NCBI RefSeq assembly: GCF_019430945.1
Contig: NZ_JAHYCB010000007.1
Span: 248,001-312,000 of the forward strand
Reading direction: 5' to 3'
From: Neorhizobium populisoli
GTDB lineage: Bacteria; Pseudomonadota; Alphaproteobacteria; Rhizobiales; Rhizobiaceae
DNA: 64,000 nucleotides
Positions 14,565 through 44,098 of the stretch are shown piece after piece. The notes beneath the pieces are model-generated. The model made no database searches. It was given only the letters and a program-made list of their open reading frames with translations, and was not told where the DNA came from. Positions within the stretch are counted from its first letter, which is position 1. Every line of letters begins with the position of its first letter. The translations under genes were made by a program, and so were the position numbers.

Positions 14565-14639
14565 GCGGGCGTAGCTCAGGGGTAGAGCATAACCTTGCCA
14601 AGGTTAGGGTCGGGCGTTCGAATCGCCTCGCCCGCTCCA
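14565..14639 (+). tRNA. tRNA-Gly (GCC anticodon)
   Basis: A 75-base cloverleaf can be drawn. Acceptor arms GCGGGCG/CGCCCGC, D arm with TAGCTCAGGGGTAGAGC, anticodon stem TAACC/GGTTA with loop TTGCCAA (anticodon GCC), T arm with GTTCGAATC, discriminator T and an encoded CCA end. It decodes GGC/GGU glycine codons. Confidence 0.97.
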
Positions 14640-20512: not shown

Positions 20513-20548
20513 CCGTGGAAGCATCTTTTAGGTAGATACATTCTCGCG

Positions 20549-20604
20549 GCCCTTTAGCGACTTTTTTTACGTGGCTGCAAGCCGGCCGGCCAAATCACCA
20601 CGAA
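20549..20604 (-). promoter_or_regulatory. SAM-II riboswitch (metA motif)
   Basis: Minus-strand order fits the SAM-II H-type pseudoknot: CGTGG (5' P1), GTGATTTGG, a short GGCC-rich stretch, GCTTGCAG, CCACG (3' P1), an A-rich linker and CGCTAAAGG at the end. The conserved GTGATTT and GCTAAA elements are both present. It lies about 90 bases upstream of metA, the usual place in alphaproteobacteria. Confidence 0.92.
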
Positions 20605-20664
20605 TTCACAATGCTTCAAATACGCCTTGCTACAAGCGTCGTCAATGGGAGCAAAATCTTGCGC

Positions 20665-25639: not shown

Positions 25640-25686
25640 GCAGCTCTCTTGCCAGAAAATCCCTCCGCCGTTACATCTGATCTCGC

Positions 25687-25777
25687 TCTAACGGGGTGCC
25701 GCACGGTTTCGTGCGGCTGAGAGGCCTCCGGCCAACCCGCGGAACCTGATCCGGTTAACACCGGCGGAGGGATTAGA
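25687..25777 (+). promoter_or_regulatory. TPP riboswitch (THI box) of thiBPQ
   Basis: Conserved aptamer blocks appear in order: GGGGTGCC, GCTGAGAGG, ACCCGCGGAACCTGATC, GGTTAACACCGGCGGAGGGA. P1 is formed by TCTAA at 25687 and TTAGA at 25773. Downstream, GCGCCT (25791-25796) can pair with AGGCGC (25818-25823) and hide the AGGAGG ribosome site, so control is probably translational. TPP should switch off thiamine import. Confidence 0.95.
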
Positions 25778-25825
25778 CGGCTCTTCATCAGCGCCTATTC
25801 CCGTAACTTGAAACAGGAGGCGCCG

Positions 25826-35682: not shown

Positions 35683-36105
35683 CTAGTCGCTATCCGCGTC
35701 CGGAAAAAGCAGGTCGATTTCCCGCCGCTCCTTCTTCGTGGGTCGCCCTGCGCCCGGAGCCCGCTGGGCCTGTTCGAAAAGCGTCAGTTTCGCGCGCTCT
35801 TCCGGGGGCGGACTCACGTCATCATAGAGAAGCCTGGCTTCCTCGAAAGGCCCGCGCCTTTCGCCACCGGCCTTTACGACCAGAACCACATCGCGTCGCT
35901 CGAGTTTCAGCTCGATACGGTCGCCAGTCTTCACATGAGCACTGGGCTGGGAAACGAGTTCGCCATTCACCCGCACATGGTTCGAGCGGATAAGATCCTG
36001 GGCGATGGAACGGGATTTCGCCATGCGGGTGAAAAAGAGCCACTTGTCGATGCGCTGGCGTGATCCGCCCGGCAACATCCTTTGTGGCTCCTCTTTCCCC
36101 GACAT
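35683..36105 (-). CDS. S4-domain RNA-binding protein (HslR/Hsp15 type)
   Basis: 140-residue protein with an S4 fold at residues 18-75: RIDKWLFFTRMAKSRSIAQDLIRSNHVRVNGELVSQPSAHVKTGDRIEL. E. coli Hsp15 has this architecture and rescues stalled 50S subunits carrying peptidyl-tRNA after heat shock. The C-tail is basic and acidic in blocks. It begins 16 bases after the helicase stop, so the two RNA-related genes probably form an operon. Confidence 0.88.
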   Translation of the reverse strand: MSGKEEPQRMLPGGSRQRIDKWLFFTRMAKSRSIAQDLIRSNHVRVNGELVSQPSAHVKTGDRIELKLERRDVVLVVKAGGERRGPFEEARLLYDDVSPPPEERAKLTLFEQAQRAPGAGRPTKKERREIDLLFPDADSD

Positions 36106-36121: not shown

Positions 36122-39100
36122 TCACTTCTTCATCTGCTCCTTGAGAGCAGCGAGCTTTGCGAAAGGCGAATCCGGATCGATCGGCTTTTCCTTGCGCGGC
36201 GGCTTGGCCTCGAAGCGAGCGGGCTGCGGCCCTTTGCCGCGATCGTTGCGATCCGGACGGGAACCGCCTTCAGGACGCTCCCCACGGTTCGGCCGGTCGC
36301 CGCGATTGTTGTCCGGTCGGCGATTGTTGTCGCGGTTCGGCCGGCCGCCGTCGCGACGCTCCTGATCGCGGTTACCGCTCGGACGGGCGTCCTTGCGATC
36401 ACCCTCCTTCCGCTCGCCATCACGACGATCGTCACGGCGGCCCTGCGGCGCACCTTCCGCGCCGCCAGCATTGCGCGGCTGGCCGCCATGGCCACGGCGA
36501 TCGCCATGCTGCGGACGGCCGCCACGCTGGTTGCTTTCACGGCCACCGCCCGGACGCCAGAGAAGAACCGGCTTCGGCTCTTCCGGTTCGGTCGGTTTGA
36601 CCTCATCGGAAACAGCCGTTTCTTCGGTAGCAACGGCTTCAGCCGGAGCAGCTTCGATCGGAGCGGCCTCGGTCGAAGCATCTGCCTCAACGGGAGCGAC
36701 TGCTTCCGACGAAGTTTCCGTCGCATCACCTGCATCCGCGTCGTCGCCTTCGGAAGTTTCTACAGCTTCAGCGGAAGGAGCGACGGCGACGACAGCGCCT
36801 GCGGAAGCGGCGTCCTGCGTTCCGAGGAACGCCTGCGCTTCTTCAGCCTTCACGCTGTCTGCACGATAACCGAGGCCCTTGAGGATTTCTTCCATATCGT
36901 CCGGCGTTGCGCCGAGAATGGAAAGCATTGCGGTCGTCGTCATGAAACGGCGACCGTCATAGGCGCCTTCTGGACGCGACGTCGAACCCGGCTTCCACTG
37001 CAGGAGCGGACGAATGAGATCTGCGAGGCGTTCGAGAATATCGATACGCACTGCGCGCTTGCCGAGGAAACGGAAACCCGCAAGCTTGTAGAACATCCGC
37101 TCGAAGTTCGGATCGGCGACGACCGACGTGCGGCCTGCCGCAAGCGCCGGGATGAGATCGCCGTAACCCGGCTTGTCGAGACCGTCATTCTTCAGCGCCC
37201 AGAGCATCGTGATGAGCTCGGCAGGGGCCGGCTTCAGAAGAAGCGGCATGAAGACATGGTAGGCGCCGAAGCGAATGCCATAACGGCGCATCGAAGCGCG
37301 GGCGTCCTGATCCAGCGTCTTGACGTCGTCTGCGACATCGCGACGGAAAAGCACACCGAGATTTTCGACGAGCTGAAACGCCAGTCCCTTGGCAAGACCC
37401 TGCAGGTCTTCGGCGCGCGACAGGTCGTCGAGCGGCTTCAGCACGGTGGCGATATGATGATTGACGAAGCGCTCGATGCGGGCCAGCACATGTTCGCGTG
37501 CATTGCCCGTCAGCTGCTCGTCGGAAAGCAGGATGACGCGCGGCCGCATGATGTGATCGCTCGCCGAAAGGCGGCCGACCGGCTCGCCCAGCCAGCGCAC
37601 GAAACCGTCAGACCCGACAGCGAGATCGCTATTGCCGGATGCGTAAAGCCGCGCGGCGCGCGCCTCGAACTCCAGAGCCAGCGCCTTCTGCGCAGCCGTC
37701 TGCACGGCCTTGGCATCGGGCCCCTCCGCCCCCGCGACAGGCGTGAACCGGAACCCGGCCAATTGCCCGACGTGATGTCCTTCCACAAAGACATCGCCAT
37801 TTACACTGATTTCAGCTTCCAGCATCGCATTCTCTCTCAGGCGCTTCATGAGCACAGATGTCCTGCGATCAACAAAGCGTTTCGTCAACCTTTCATGTAG
37901 CGCGTCCGACAACCTATCCTCGATTTCCCGCGTCTTTTCCTGCCAGTGTGTCGGATCGGCAAGCCAGCCGGGGCGGTTGGAGACATAGGTCCAGGTTCGA
38001 ATCTGCGCAATACGGGCCGATAGCGTGTCGATTTCGCCATCGGTCCGGTCGGCACGGCGAACCTGTTCTCCCATGAAATCTTCGTTCACCGTCCCGAACC
38101 GCAAAAGATCGGAAAAAAGAGTCGAAATGAGGTCGGCGTGCTGCGCCGGCGTAATACGACGGTAGTCGGGAAGTGCACAAGCCTCCCACAGCTTTTCGAC
38201 GCGCTCTGGAGTCGTCGCGGTATCCTTTATCTCCGGATATCGTGAAAGATAATCAAAGGCCTGGCTGTCGGTTGCGGGAAGTGCCCGGGCAAGACCTGCC
38301 ACCGTCGGCGGCGCATCGAGACTGTCGCGCAGCGATCTCAGCGACGAGAAATCGAGATTTTTTGAGCGCCATTGCAGCACTTTCACCGGATCGAAATGGT
38401 GGCCTTCGATTCGCTCGACCAGTTCGGGATCGAAAGGATCGACCTGCCCGGTAACGCCAAAGGTGCCATCCCGCACGTGACGACCGGCGCGACCCGCGAT
38501 CTGCCCGAGTTCGCCGGGATTGAGGTTGCGGAACTGGTAACCGTCGAATTTCCGGTCCTGTGCGAAGGCGACATGATCGACATCGAGATTGAGGCCCATG
38601 CCGATCGCGTCGGTGGCAACCAGATATTCGACGTCGCCTTCCTGATAGAGACCCACCTGCGCATTGCGCGTGCGCGGGCTGAGCGCCCCGAGCACAACGG
38701 CTGCCCCGCCACGCTGGCGGCGGATCAGTTCGGCAATCGCATAAACTTCTTCGGCCGAAAAAGCGACGATGGCCGAACGTTGCGGCAGGCGGGTGATCTT
38801 CTTCTGTCCGGCGTAAAACAGCTGCGACATGCGCGGGCGCTCGACGACGGTTATACCCGGCAACAGCTTTTCAAGGATCGGCCGCATCGTCGCGGCGCCG
38901 AGCAACAACGTTTCCTCACGGCCGCGCAGGTGCATGATCCGGTCTGTGAAGATATGCCCGCGCTCGAGATCGCCTGCGAGCTGCACCTCATCGATCGCCA
39001 CGAAAGCAGCACGCGTATCGCGCGGCATGGCTTCAACGGTGCAGACAGAAAAGCGGGCGTTCGGCGGCGTGATCTTTTCTTCGCCCGTTACCAGTGCCAC

Positions 39101-39274
39101 ATGGGCGACACCGACCTTCTCGACCACGCGCGTATAGACTTCGCGCGCCAGGAGCCGGAGCGGCAACCCGATGACGCCGGACCCGTGCGCCACCATGCGC
39201 TCGATGGCATAATGGGTCTTGCCAGTATTGGTGGGTCCGAGAACGGCGGTAACGCCGCGCCCGCTGAGCAACAT
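36122..39274 (-). CDS. Suv3-like superfamily 2 helicase with disordered Arg/Gly-rich tail
   Basis: About 1050 residues. The helicase core opens with Walker A GPTNTGKTHYAIERM near residue 13, motif II AIDEVQLAG, motif III LLLGAATM and motif VI QIAGRAGRHVRDG. This resembles the mitochondrial Suv3 RNA helicase. A middle helical region follows. After about residue 780 comes an acidic Ala/Glu/Pro tract, then some 150 residues rich in R, G, D and N (RGG-like), then a short conserved end LAALKEQMKK. The start is uncertain: ATG 39274 lacks a clear ribosome site, and GTG or TTG starts within 30 bases upstream are possible. The frame stays open to 39589, but this part crosses the repeat region. Confidence 0.85.
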   Translation of the reverse strand: MLLSGRGVTAVLGPTNTGKTHYAIERMVAHGSGVIGLPLRLLAREVYTRVVEKVGVAHVALVTGEEKITPPNARFSVCTVEAMPRDTRAAFVAIDEVQLAGDLERGHIFTDRIMHLRGREETLLLGAATMRPILEKLLPGITVVERPRMSQLFYAGQKKITRLPQRSAIVAFSAEEVYAIAELIRRQRGGAAVVLGALSPRTRNAQVGLYQEGDVEYLVATDAIGMGLNLDVDHVAFAQDRKFDGYQFRNLNPGELGQIAGRAGRHVRDGTFGVTGQVDPFDPELVERIEGHHFDPVKVLQWRSKNLDFSSLRSLRDSLDAPPTVAGLARALPATDSQAFDYLSRYPEIKDTATTPERVEKLWEACALPDYRRITPAQHADLISTLFSDLLRFGTVNEDFMGEQVRRADRTDGEIDTLSARIAQIRTWTYVSNRPGWLADPTHWQEKTREIEDRLSDALHERLTKRFVDRRTSVLMKRLRENAMLEAEISVNGDVFVEGHHVGQLAGFRFTPVAGAEGPDAKAVQTAAQKALALEFEARAARLYASGNSDLAVGSDGFVRWLGEPVGRLSASDHIMRPRVILLSDEQLTGNAREHVLARIERFVNHHIATVLKPLDDLSRAEDLQGLAKGLAFQLVENLGVLFRRDVADDVKTLDQDARASMRRYGIRFGAYHVFMPLLLKPAPAELITMLWALKNDGLDKPGYGDLIPALAAGRTSVVADPNFERMFYKLAGFRFLGKRAVRIDILERLADLIRPLLQWKPGSTSRPEGAYDGRRFMTTTAMLSILGATPDDMEEILKGLGYRADSVKAEEAQAFLGTQDAASAGAVVAVAPSAEAVETSEGDDADAGDATETSSEAVAPVEADASTEAAPIEAAPAEAVATEETAVSDEVKPTEPEEPKPVLLWRPGGGRESNQRGGRPQHGDRRGHGGQPRNAGGAEGAPQGRRDDRRDGERKEGDRKDARPSGNRDQERRDGGRPNRDNNRRPDNNRGDRPNRGERPEGGSRPDRNDRGKGPQPARFEAKPPRKEKPIDPDSPFAKLAALKEQMKK

Positions 39275-39465
39275 GGGCTGGAAGTTCAAAATCAAATTCC
39301 GCACATCAGATAATGCATCCGTCTCCGCCTGGGGCTTAGACGCGAGCCACGCAACACATGGCGATACCTGCACGCAAACGCAAGTCTGAAGATGACTTTT
39401 AGGCCCCTCAATCCGCCGAATTCCACCGCTTGAGGCCGCAAATCCTGCCGTTAAGGAACAGACGC

Positions 39466-39525
39466 GAACGAATCGGCGACGAATCGAAGACTCCAAATGA
39501 TTCAGTCTTTGTTCACGGCTAGATA
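39466..39525 (+). repeat. iteron repeat copy 1 (diverged)
   Basis: Two 11-bp direct iterons, CGAATCGGCGA (39469) and CGAATCGAAGA (39480). GTTCAC starts 45 bases after GAACGAATC, followed by a TAGATATTG segment like the CAATATC of other copies. Confidence 0.7.
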
Positions 39526-39694
39526 TTGATGAGAGTCTCCCCTCGGCCACGACATCCTGAATCTGCGTCGGAATCCTTCGTTCATACAATGCGGACTCGA
39601 ACAGAAGCGCCGATTTCAGAAAGAATCGCGAGAGTCAATGCGTTGATATGGTTAATCATTTTTAACCGGTTACGCCTCTCTGCAAGCTGCCGCA

Positions 39695-39790
39695 TAGCCG
39701 ACGTTAAGATTCGGGTCAAAGACGGAACGAATCAATGACGAATCGCTGACATCATTATTTTCCCGTTCCGTTCTCACAATATCTAGTGGG
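39695..39790 (+). repeat. iteron repeat copy 2 (diverged)
   Basis: Iterons CGAATCAATGA (39728) and CGAATCGCTGA (39739), preceded by GGAA and followed after the same 45-base interval by GTTCTCACAATATCTAGTGGG. It has one extra base before the iterons compared with copies 3-5. Confidence 0.75.
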
Positions 39791-39917
39791 TATGTGGGCA
39801 AGGCAGGCGCAAGAAAACCGCTCTGTTTCCTTGATCGTCAAGGTGCTTCCATAGCCCGTGTTAACGTTGCCTAACGAACTTTAACCACACGTGAGCGCAA
39901 CCGTGTTCATTGAAGCG

Positions 39918-39942
39918 GGAACAAAAATCGACAAGCCACGTT
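39918..39942 (+). promoter_or_regulatory. EcfG/RpoE2-type promoter of the DUF3309 gene
   Basis: GGAAC and CGTT are separated by exactly 16 bases and end 58 bases before the ATG. DUF3309 genes are often part of the general stress response. Confidence 0.7.
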
Positions 39943-40000
39943 TCCTCGCCAAATCAATGCCGGCCTGATGGAAGCCGGATGATCAAGTGGAGTGGAAACT

Positions 40001-40156
40001 ATGCTCGGAACCGTGTTGCTCATCGTCCTTATTCTGCTACTCCTAGGCGCGTTGCCGAACTGGGGTTATAGCCGAAGCTGGGGTTACGGTCCTTCGGGCG
40101 GCTTAGGCCTCGTAGTCCTGATCATCATCATCCTGCTGCTGATGGGCAGGATTTAA
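40001..40156 (+). CDS. DUF3309 small membrane protein
   Basis: 51-residue protein MLGTVLLIVLILLLLGALPNW...GGLGLVVLIIIILLLMGRI. Two hydrophobic helices flank a central Trp/Tyr/Gly turn (NWGYSRSWGYG), the DUF3309 pattern. GGAG lies nine bases before the ATG. It is too short for many gene finders. Function unknown; the EcfG-type promoter 60 bases upstream marks it as a probable general-stress gene. Confidence 0.88.
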   Translation: MLGTVLLIVLILLLLGALPNWGYSRSWGYGPSGGLGLVVLIIIILLLMGRI

Positions 40157-40198
40157 AAGTACGGCAAAGCCGTCAGTAACCAGGGAAGGGAAAGTGAC

Positions 40199-40453
40199 AT
40201 GAAAAAGATTATTCTCGTAGGCTGCATGGTCGGCGCTCTTGCGTCTTGCACCGCGACTGAAAAGGGCACCGCAATCGGTGCAGGCACCGGCGCCGTCATC
40301 GGCGGCGCTGTTACCAACAGCTGGGGTGGCGCAGCAGTCGGCGCAGTTGCCGGCGGCCTCGTCGGCGCCGCAATCGGCCATTCGTCGGAACGCCGCGGCT
40401 ACTGCATCTATCGCGATCGTTACGGCCGCACTTACGAAGCTCGTTGCCGCTAA
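40199..40453 (+). CDS. glycine-zipper small lipoprotein
   Basis: 84 residues. Signal with lipobox LASC (Cys 17), then Gly-zipper repeats KGTAIGAGTGAVIGGAVTNSWGGAAVGAVAGGLVGAAIG of the 17-kDa surface antigen/YMGG type, then a basic, cysteine-containing tail RRGYCIYRDRYGRTYEARCR. It lies 42 bases after the DUF3309 gene and may share its stress promoter. Probably an envelope protein; function unknown. Confidence 0.85.
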   Translation: MKKIILVGCMVGALASCTATEKGTAIGAGTGAVIGGAVTNSWGGAAVGAVAGGLVGAAIGHSSERRGYCIYRDRYGRTYEARCR

Positions 40454-40482
40454 TACCGGACGAGCGGGGAGAAATCCCTCGA

Positions 40483-40513
40483 ACCGGCGCCCGGGTAACC
40501 GGCGCCGGTTTTT
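40483..40513 (+). terminator. intrinsic terminator of the glycine-zipper gene
   Basis: Nine-base stem ACCGGCGCC/GGCGCCGGT around nine bases, followed by five T; 29 bases past the stop. Confidence 0.82.
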
Positions 40514-40556
40514 CTTTGCCTTTCGGCTGTCAAAACTTCGACAAAAATGGCTGGCG

Positions 40557-40803
40557 TTAACCTCTCGGCCAAAGCCGGAACGAATCGCTGACGAATCGGC
40601 GACATTGCTCGTTTCCCGTTTCGTTCACCGCAATATCATGTGTAAAAACAATTTGTTAACCATAGATGGCGACGATCTCGAAGCTGTTTTATCTGCAAGA
40701 GCCCTTTGAAAATTAAGCTTTGTAACTGAGCTGGCAAGAGCCACGCAAAAGGTGTGAAATCTCCGAGTTTGAAAGCCGCCTACCAGGCACCTGTCGCGTG
40801 CCA
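40557..40803 (+). repeat. tandem iteron repeat copy 3 (247 bp)
   Basis: Unit starts TTAACCTCTCGGCC. Iterons CGAATCGCTGA (40581) and CGAATCGGCGA (40592), GTTCACCGCAATATCATGTG at +45 from GAACGAATC, then GTTAACCAT, then a less conserved 140-base half with TTTGAAAATTAAGCTTTG shared with copy 4. Confidence 0.88.
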
Positions 40804-41049
40804 TTAACGTCTCGGCCAAACCCGGAACGAATCACCGACGAATCGGTGACATCGGGCATTTCCCGTTTCGTTCACCGCAATATCATGTGTAAAAACAATT
40901 CGTTAACCATACAAAATAGCTATCTTGGAACCGCTTTCACCGTGAAGAGAGTTTGAAAATTAAGCTTTGAAATGGGCCGGCAATGCCTCGCGAAGCCCGT
41001 GACATTTGCGAGCTCGAAAGTCAGGCACACAGCTCCTCGCACCGCGCTG
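40804..41049 (+). repeat. tandem iteron repeat copy 4 (246 bp)
   Basis: Same order as copy 3: TTAACGTCTCGGCC start, iterons CGAATCACCGA (40828) and CGAATCGGTGA (40839), GTTCACCGCAATATCATGTG, GTTAACCAT, and the TTTGAAAATTAAGCTTTG block. Confidence 0.88.
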
Positions 41050-41160
41050 TTAACCTCTCGGTCAAACCCGGAACGAATCGCTGACGAATCGGCGACATCA
41101 TCTGTTTCCGGGTTTGTTCACCGCAACATCTCGTGGGAAAACAATCTGTTAACCATAAGG
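41050..41160 (+). repeat. tandem iteron repeat copy 5 (truncated)
   Basis: Conserved first 110 bases only: TTAACCTCTCGGTC, iterons CGAATCGCTGA (41074) and CGAATCGGCGA (41085), GTTCACCGCAACATCTCGTGGG and GTTAACCAT. The second half is missing where the phbB 3' region begins. Confidence 0.88.
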
Positions 41161-41218: not shown

Positions 41219-41947
41219 TCAACCGGACATGTACTGGCCGCCATTGGCGGTCAGCGTCGAGCCTGTGATGAACCCGGCCTCGTCTGAGGCGAGGAACACG
41301 ACGCAGCGGGCAATCTCCTCCGGCTCGCCGAGACGACCGACCGGGATCTGCGGGATAATGCGCTCGTTCAGCACCTTTTCCGGCACTGCCTTCACCATTT
41401 CCGTGGCGATATAGCCTGGGCAGATCGCATTGACCGTGATGCCCTTGGCCGCGCCTTCTTGCGCCAGCGCCTTGGTGAAACCGAGATCGCCGGCCTTGGC
41501 GGCGGAATAGTTCACCTGCCCCATCTGCCCCTTCTGACCATTGATCGAAGAGATGGAGATGATGCGGCCGAAATTGCGGTCGCGCATGCCGGTCCAGACG
41601 GGATGCGTCATGTTGAACAGACCGGATAGATTGGTGCCGATCACCTCGTTCCACTGTTCCGGCGTCATCTTGTGGAACATGCCATCGCGGGTAATGCCGG
41701 CATTGTTGACGAGGATCTCGATCGGACCAAGCTCGGCCTCGACCTTGGCGATGCCCTCGGCACAGGCCTGATAGCTGGACACGTCCCATTTGAAGACCGG
41801 AATACCGGTCTCATCATGGAAAGCTTTGGCCTTTTCCTCGTTACCGGCAAAATTCGCCGCAACGCGATAGCCGGCAGCCTTCAAAGCGATCGAGATCGCG
41901 GCACCGATACCCCGGGTGCCACCGGAAACCAACGCAACCCTGCTCAT
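41219..41947 (-). CDS. phbB: acetoacetyl-CoA reductase
   Basis: 242-residue NADPH-dependent short-chain dehydrogenase that makes (R)-3-hydroxybutyryl-CoA, step two of PHB synthesis. Cofactor motif SGGTRGIGAAI is at residues 8-18, NNAGI mid-protein, and the catalytic Ser/Tyr/Lys in ISISSINGQKGQMGQVNYSAAKAG. It follows phbA by 138 bases on the same strand, with phaR divergent upstream, a complete PHB block except for the synthase, which is not in this window. Confidence 0.96.
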   Translation of the reverse strand: MSRVALVSGGTRGIGAAISIALKAAGYRVAANFAGNEEKAKAFHDETGIPVFKWDVSSYQACAEGIAKVEAELGPIEILVNNAGITRDGMFHKMTPEQWNEVIGTNLSGLFNMTHPVWTGMRDRNFGRIISISSINGQKGQMGQVNYSAAKAGDLGFTKALAQEGAAKGITVNAICPGYIATEMVKAVPEKVLNERIIPQIPVGRLGEPEEIARCVVFLASDEAGFITGSTLTANGGQYMSG

Positions 41948-43522: not shown

Positions 43523-44098
43523 ATGGCAAAGACCGAAGGCGAAATCATAATCAAGAAATATGCCAACAGGCGCCTCTACAACACGGGCACCAGCACATAC
43601 GTGACGCTGGAAGACCTGGCGAAGATGGTGAAGAAGGGTGAGGAATTCACCGTCCAGGACGCCAAGACCGGCGAGGACATCACTCACTCGGTGCTGACGC
43701 AGATCATTTTCGAGCAGGAATCGAAGACCGGCAACACGCTGCTTCCGATTTCCTTCCTACGCCAGCTGATCTCCTATTACGGCGACCAGATGCAGATGGT
43801 AGTGCCGACCTTCCTCGAACATTCGATGAAGACCTTCAGCGATCAGCAATCCCAGATGCGTGAACAGATGACGCGCGCCCTCGGCGATACGCCGATCGCC
43901 AAGAACCTGCAGATGCCAATGCAGCTGATGGAAGAACAGGTGCGCCGCAATACGGAAATGTTCCGCCAGGCCGTGCAGATGTTTTCGCCTTTTACCGGCC
44001 AGCCGCAGCAGCCGGTCGCCAAGAAAACCGACGCCAAGGATATCGACGAATTGAAGGAACAGCTCCGCAACCTGCAGAGCCGCCTCGACAACCTTTAA
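43523..44098 (+). CDS. phaR: PHB synthesis repressor PhaR
   Basis: 191-residue regulator. The N-terminal PHB/PHA DNA-binding domain reads IIIKKYANRRLYNTGTSTYVTLEDLAKMVKKGEEFTVQDAKTGEDIT (residues 7-53), then one or two PHB-accumulation repeats (SILTQIIFEQESK-like), and a Gln-rich C-terminal helix. PhaR binds nascent PHB granules and, when free, represses phasin genes. AGGAGG precedes the ATG. It is divergent from phbAB. Also called aniA in rhizobia. Confidence 0.95.
   Translation: MAKTEGEIIIKKYANRRLYNTGTSTYVTLEDLAKMVKKGEEFTVQDAKTGEDITHSVLTQIIFEQESKTGNTLLPISFLRQLISYYGDQMQMVVPTFLEHSMKTFSDQQSQMREQMTRALGDTPIAKNLQMPMQLMEEQVRRNTEMFRQAVQMFSPFTGQPQQPVAKKTDAKDIDELKEQLRNLQSRLDNL

Follow-up and report, generated by a model that had tools for sequence, protein, structure and literature searches.

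The element described in the present study is a repeated intergenic block that occurs five times between a gene for a SUV3-like helicase and a phbB-like gene of Neorhizobium populisoli (Rhizobiaceae). It lies in a stretch of 64,000 nucleotides (NCBI RefSeq assembly GCF_019430945.1, contig NZ_JAHYCB010000007.1, positions 248,001 to 312,000 of the forward strand), which we call the window and to whose numbering the coordinates refer unless another locus is named.

The five copies and their neighbours

A scan of the window placed the 20-base core, GAACGAATCNNNGACGAATC, without mismatch at 39466, 39725, 40578, 40825 and 41071, and with up to three mismatches at one further place only (6380, three mismatches; shuffled sequences gave a mean of 0.31 and a maximum of 2 such matches). 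The copies are 259 bp (copies 1 and 2), 853 bp (copies 2 and 3) and then 247 and 246 bp apart, and in all five the right-hand GTTC starts exactly 45 bases past the G of GAAC. These data clearly bear out a preceding sequence-only reading, in which a model had proposed from the letters alone the places of the five copies, the 45-base rule and the spacings of 246–247 bp (copies 3–5) and 259 bp (copies 1 and 2). That reading also gave copy 2 a one-base insertion, which was mistaken, as copy 2 is one base shorter and not longer between GTTC and a conserved palindrome. The repeat tract extends into this palindrome, e.g. CACAATATCTAGTG in copy 2, and the earlier reading had not listed it. Exact matches to the 17-base core, CGAATCNNNGACGAATC, are confined to these five sites in the whole genome of 6.84 Mb (reversed control, 0), two more sites differ from it by one mismatch, and when copy 3 was used as the query against its own genome all matches outside the array had E values of 0.36 or above.

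Comparison with related loci, given below, separates a helicase-proximal type of copy (P), with a left box GAAC-N7-GAAC, from a distal type (D), with CAAA at position −8 relative to the G of the inner GAAC. Copies 2–5 are of the D type. Copy 1 is strictly neither: it stands in the P place, and its GANTC sites and its pair of NrdR-like boxes are those of P, but only six bases (N6) separate the outer from the inner GAAC. Compared with copies 2–5, it lacks the CAAA arm, has GANTC sites in greater number and adds a further box of the NrdR-like kind. By box reading and family comparison this P-like element spans 39455..39563 (plus strand, as are all five copies) and comprises GAAC-N6-GAAC at 39456–39469, which lacks one base of the LexA spacing, GANTC at 39470, 39481, 39489 and 39499 and again at 39533 and 39559, the inverted box ATTC-N7-GTTC at 39500–39514, and NrdR-like boxes at 39516–39531 and, 31 bp on, at 39547–39562. 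The run of GANTC sites continues past the core of copy 1 (39533, 39559, 39571, 39594, 39623 and 39632, within 39533–39636). Copy 2 (39714..39788) shows GGTC-N7-GAAC at 39714–39728, GANTC at 39729 and 39740, TTTC-N7-GTTC at 39759–39773 and the NrdR-type palindrome at 39775–39788. Copies 3 (40567..40664, with an NrdR-like box at 40628–40643), 4 (40814..40911) and 5 (41060..41157) each end with a trailing GTTAACCATA.

To the left lies the usual neighbour of the element, the helicase gene (36122..39280, minus strand, start codon provisional; Pfam DEXQc_Suv3 and Helicase_C), and directly downstream of it an S4-domain gene (35683..36105, minus strand; Hsp15-like, below the NCBIfam cut-off), which from the gene order probably shares its operon. 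The minus-strand row of genes runs from the helicase through the S4-domain protein and FdxA to a protein that we take, by resemblance, to be CarD-like. Two small-protein genes stand on the plus strand within the array, one for a DUF3309 protein between copies 2 and 3 (40001..40156) and one for a glycine-zipper protein (40199..40453). To the right, a reductase gene, probably phbB-like on the strength of a Pfam match and its context, turns its 3′ end towards copy 5 (41219..41947, minus strand).

Box content and spacing across the class

Counted from the G of the inner GAAC as 0, the class-wide pattern reads GAAC at −11, GAAC at 0, CGAATCR at 14, T.AC at 22, NTTC at 34, GTTC at 45 and CNANATNTNG at 53, and 29 class-wide loci, with few exceptions, keep the same spacing throughout the block. 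To this the P copies of Rhizobiaceae add GANTC at 4, 23 and 33 (also at −7 in about half of them) and a second NrdR-like box 31 bp past the first. The P arrangement is found in 108 of 113 first copies and in 14 of 99 others, and the D arrangement in none of the 113 first copies and in 78 of the 99 others, leaving five first copies and seven others that are neither; 205 distinct copies (108 P and 97 D) were compared. D copies have a better NrdR box and a weaker left LexA box than P copies, their left arm reads G..CAAAGCCGGAAC, and 20 of the 97 are followed by TTAACCAT. Binding of CtrA was considered and rejected: TTAA lies at −21 in approximately 70% of P copies and the D copies just mentioned have the trailing TTAACCAT, but by eye the consensus shows no TTAA-N7-TTAA. 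A helical phasing of the copies was likewise rejected, as 28 distinct spacings below 300 bp showed no 10.5-bp period (R ~0.06); a count per locus (73 spacings) gave R 0.37 at 10.5, which is no support for phasing because a period of 11.6 gave a larger R (0.55) and the same spacing recurs among related genomes.

The left arm of the P copies resembles a LexA box closely, as 103 of the 108 distinct copies have exactly seven bases (N7) between the outer and the inner GAAC. Among the 29 distant loci, once aligned, GAAC-N7-GAAC is complete in eight, and the outer half keeps four of four letters in 16 and three of four in eight. In N. populisoli itself the recA gene carries GAACAGGATGAGAAC, a GAAC-N7-GAAC box 184 bp before the family match, whose inner letters resemble those of P copies such as GAACAGGGTGGGAAC. 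The pattern GTTCNNNNTTTGTTC has six matches in this genome, compared with none in the control, and three of them lie at the ssb/uvrA interval and at two dinB genes (names from translations). The right boxes of the window copies have seven of the eight letters of the LexA half-sites, and in general the right box has ATTC or TTTC rather than GTTC. One published study notes that an overlap between GANTC and the degenerate LexA motif, GTTC-N7-GTTC, can readily arise (PMC7987155).

The palindromic part is of the NrdR type. Copy 2 and the box upstream of nrdJ both agree with CMCWANATNTWGKG at every position, and the other copies match it with mismatches. The palindrome occurs at four places in the genome, namely upstream of nrdJ, in copy 2, before a response-regulator gene and inside a coding frame; the third of these (locus L191, 1501–1514) precedes an OmpR-like regulator near flagellar genes, as named by resemblance. 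A box core was found upstream of nrdJ-family matches in all nine Rhizobiaceae genomes (our own and eight others) and in six of nine other genomes, three of these six having nrdJ matches below the family cut-off. In nine aligned nrdJ upstream regions a second half box follows approximately 31 bp on, by eye, and in the P copies the score for a second box peaks at an offset of 31 (4.23 of 6, compared with 2.83 for the next best offset); in D copies the first box is good and the second one is weak at this distance (2.54 of 6). According to a study of NrdR proteins, binding is best with spacers of 15–17 bp, approximately three turns, and is good again at 24–27 bp (PMC12051234). No nrd gene stands beside the window array, whose neighbours are the helicase, DUF3309, glycine-zipper and phbB-like genes, and a model of the D copies had no match to the whole element in 19 nrdJ and recA loci, indicating that these promoters have boxes in common with the element and not the module. 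Separately, eight Rhizobiaceae genomes (L363–L367 and L370–L372) have two NrdR-type cores 245–251 bp apart upstream of nrdJ, in two arrangements relative to the gene and at a spacing near the 246–247 bp unit of the array.

GANTC, the site of CcrM methylation, is dense in the element, with 47.6 sites per kb in P elements (flanks, 6.2) and 22.8 in D copies (flanks, 4.6), compared with 1.59 over the window and with 0.90–1.83 per kb given for Ensifer genomes in PMC8725594. Five or more GANTC sites within 107 bp are found nowhere in the window but around copy 1. CGAATCR is present in all five window copies and in all 29 aligned class-wide loci, the alignment being anchored on CGAATC. On the strand facing the helicase it reads YGATTCG, a form of YGAKTCK, which PMC7987155 gives as the GcrA motif in Caulobacter; a chromatin immunoprecipitation sequencing data set for GcrA also exists for Brucella (PMC6813329).

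Distribution and the helicase gene

The exact 17-base core was found in 113 of 199 Rhizobiaceae genomes (reversed control, 1). A sequence-only covariance model of the helicase-proximal copy (R1), built from 60 of 86 suitable loci, matched 147 of the 199 (E ≤ 0.001) and, across the class, 31 of 289 alphaproteobacterial genomes with our own counted (E ≤ 0.01). The scan of named contigs gave at least 119 loci, and the matches listed include Rhizobium, Ensifer, Neorhizobium, Mesorhizobium, Hoeflea, Brucella, Bartonella, Chelativorans and Labrenzia. In the 147 loci that contain the 20-base core, the number of exact copies is one in 78, two in 50, three in 17 and four in two; nearly all distant genomes have a single match, and none of 149 loci has cores on both strands. 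The element is thus widely kept in Rhizobiaceae, mostly at the same site, and its spacing, the loss of which in close relatives the sequence-only reading had named as grounds for abandoning the pattern, is kept across the family and beyond. A similar layout, in which GAACGAATCNNNGACGAATC and GATTCGTTC are joined by a trailing TTAACCAT, lies elsewhere in the genome in a Methylopila metagenome-assembled genome (L101, ~1870) and in Chelatococcus (L122, ~4877), with no helicase match within the 8 kb examined.

The helicase gene lies to the left of the element in 100 of 119 among the named loci listed and in 28 of the 30 loci of the exact 17-base-core set. The gene is missing from 19 named loci. 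In 12 of them no more than 650 bp separates the left end from the first copy, so that the helicase may lie outside; five others (L091, L128, L133, L135 and L156) look like chance matches because GTTC is missing at +45, and the last two are the differently arranged L101 and L122. The first exact copy is within 290 bp of the helicase start in 113 of the 126 loci for which that start could be placed (median, 188 bp), some genomes being counted twice. In the class-wide set the helicase is beside the element, in matching orientation, in 25 of 29 loci, the exceptions being L205 (helicase 4.7 kb off), L208 (helicase not found) and the weak matches L221 and L222. The neighbour on the far side changes, being phbB, phbA or others, with an acyl-CoA dehydrogenase gene by resemblance in L209, L212 and L214. 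Elsewhere in the window, a Pfam match identifies a gene for a polyhydroxybutyrate accumulation regulator of the PhaR/AniA type (43523–44098), and Rfam matches identify a SAM_alpha riboswitch (20534–20611, minus strand), a TPP riboswitch (25682–25789, plus strand) and a tRNA gene (14565–14636, plus strand).

A putative composite operator

Given this combination of boxes, geometry and neighbour, we favour, with moderate confidence, the interpretation that each copy is a composite DNA-damage and replication operator of the helicase operon that has been multiplied in Rhizobiaceae; which proteins would bind, which promoter they would serve, in which direction regulation would run and what the distal copies would do are predictions from the boxes and their setting. 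The operator unit, of approximately 75–110 bp, would consist of a LexA-type GAAC-N7-GAAC on the left and an inverted NTTC-N7-GTTC on the right, 45 bp apart, together with GANTC in the GcrA-preferred context CGAATCR and an NrdR box, which in the proximal type has a second one 31 bp on. Its ancestral state would be a single copy upstream of the helicase gene. LexA and NrdR would likely repress the promoter, DNA damage or a falling supply of deoxyribonucleoside triphosphates (dNTPs) would likely lift this repression, and methylation by CcrM, read by GcrA, would likely confine firing to a period after passage of the replication fork, with the helicase operon as the output. Duplication in Rhizobiaceae would then have produced the array, with one P-type copy next to the helicase and at least one D-type copy farther out, and the distal D copies may stabilize looping or co-operative repression, or serve other ends.

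The earlier proposal of a protein-binding array holds as far as a regulatory kind of site is concerned, being supported by the fixed spacing and by the lack of covariation, Rfam, terminator or coding signals in the element, and these same results bear on the other functions that had been suggested. Tandem small-RNA genes would explain tandem intergenic copies; we regard them as very unlikely, since no Rfam family matches the repeat at its gathering score (below that score only, with E ≥ 0.42), the consensus folds with −0.88 kcal/mol and five pairs without a compensatory change, the symmetric stem GAAC...GTTC covaries no more than shuffled alignments do (142 of 500 shuffles of the D copies and 487 of 500 of the P copies scored at least as high as the observed alignment), and terminators are not above chance. 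Local expansion of a mobile or dispersed repeat of the REP, RIME or MITE-like kind would account for tandem copies of similar unit length, and is less probable again: a repeat of this kind is at odds with a genome that holds nothing below an E value of 0.36 outside the array and with the same site and single orientation in relatives. We give hardly any credence to a remnant or conserved coding sequence. Its peptide PERI...FVHRNI is open in frame over copies 3 and 5 in the list of open reading frames, as the sequence-only reading had pointed out, but the frame is not conserved, being open over 75 nucleotides in 115 of the 205 distinct copies, and shows no codon periodicity. The suggestion of a nucleoid or partition site found no support either, as the window contains no match with up to three mismatches to a 16-mer parS consensus.

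Two further explanations were kept mainly because the strict spacing of boxes for supposedly independent proteins lacks an explanation in the composite operator. One, which we consider unlikely although not negligible, is that the array is, or is also, an origin-proximal control site whose LexA, NrdR and GANTC modules, and in some genera DnaA boxes, titrate or stage replication-linked proteins. It would suit distal copies that are conserved and of their own type yet face no conserved gene, the single orientation of the copies of one locus, and the genome that retains the element without the helicase (G252). DnaA-like boxes follow 20 of 97 D copies compared with 4 of 108 P copies, a count that has no chance control. 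In addition, hemE, which we take to be the origin neighbour in Sinorhizobium and used here as an origin marker, is 108–483 kb away in 14 of the 15 genomes with both on one contig; the fifteenth (G033) has 810 kb to the better of two hemE matches, and two more of the 17 genomes analysed have hemE and the element on different contigs. Across the class, nevertheless, it is the helicase that stays constant and almost every distant genome has just one match, one to five copies is a low number for titration, and the place near the origin may only mirror a conserved gene order. A more far-reaching form, which we hold to be improbable, makes the element a class-old non-coding replication-control site at which LexA, NrdR and methylation-read GcrA would meet in one near-origin complex of fixed geometry, the copies titrating or gating regulators chromosome-wide and the helicase being one output. 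The other explanation, to which we assign a similarly small chance, is that one DNA-binding protein that is neither LexA nor NrdR reads the whole 65-bp block and that the resemblance to known boxes is partial. The block spacing fixed in nearly all of the 29 loci, the usual ATTC or TTTC of the right box and the left arm of the D copies are what such a protein would predict; the full N7 box in 103 of 108 P copies and the match of the NrdR part to the nrdJ boxes, 31-bp pairing included, argue against it.

Besides the strict spacing, several observations weigh against the composite operator. The LexA yardstick is loose, as a perfect box was found within 500 bp upstream of recA in only five of 18 genomes and the other three sites with the GTTCNNNNTTTGTTC pattern are at no recognized SOS gene. 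In the window, the left box of copy 1 has N6 and the outer halves of copies 2–5 are GGTC or GGCC, and a perfect GTTC-N7-GTTC on the right is present in only 13 of the 108 distinct P copies and 11 of the 97 distinct D copies. The conserved CAAAGCCG arm of the D copies was matched to no protein. Dense GANTC characterizes Rhizobiaceae: between one and four sites are present in each of the 29 distant loci, and just one in 16 of them. Brevundimonas shows no preferred extended GcrA motif according to PMC7987155. With regard to the helicase, only two of 80 upstream regions match the model of the element, both weakly, these regions being drawn from 146 helicase-bearing alphaproteobacterial genomes with those already matched left out; the gene thus dispenses with the element in most sampled lineages and the link is lineage-bound. 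Nor are single boxes clearly enriched in the 80 helicase upstream regions without the element. Genome G252 (L208) has the element and no helicase match; there the element is followed after approximately 25 bp by a 261-codon frame for a different protein, and a carD-like frame lies 5.9 kb away. In G400 the helicase is 4.7 kb away. Finally, a plain promoter sits poorly with distal copies that no conserved gene faces, and no sigma-70-like promoter was found above chance.

If the composite operator is correct, one small module would couple the SOS response, dNTP supply and the methylation-timed cell cycle at a SUV3-like helicase, in symbionts (Rhizobium and Mesorhizobium) as well as in relatives, for example Brucella and Bartonella. 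This little-known helicase, whose mitochondrial relative acts in RNA turnover, would become a candidate replication or repair factor, and the array would be a clean case for why bacteria keep tandem operator copies that face no gene.

Our literature search, which covered titles and the openings of abstracts, recognized no paper on the element or on control of the helicase by LexA or NrdR. The sequence-only reading knew of no named family with this layout, and in these searches that holds for the layout as a whole and for its multiplicity; the parts are mostly of known kinds and match LexA, NrdR and GANTC/GcrA boxes. The datA locus of Escherichia coli titrates DnaA, and datA-like loci resemble the array in being non-coding, origin-proximal and made up of several protein sites, but the boxes of the array are not mainly DnaA boxes and its titration role is putative. 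LexA usually acts at one box at the promoter of a repair gene. The left arm of the P copies is like such alphaproteobacterial SOS boxes, resembling the recA boxes of five of the 18 genomes, whereas here two inverted boxes stand 45 bp apart in an array, with degenerate right and distal outer halves. As at CcrM/GcrA sites, a central YGATTCG lies on the helicase-facing strand; unlike them, the element in Rhizobiaceae has up to eight GANTC sites in 111 bp, the first ones approximately 11 bp apart. With the NrdR box pairs of ribonucleotide reductase promoters it shares the palindrome, the 31-bp pairing seen at nrdJ and the published spacing rule, and it differs from them in adjoining no nrd gene and in holding its box at a fixed distance from LexA-like and GANTC sites.

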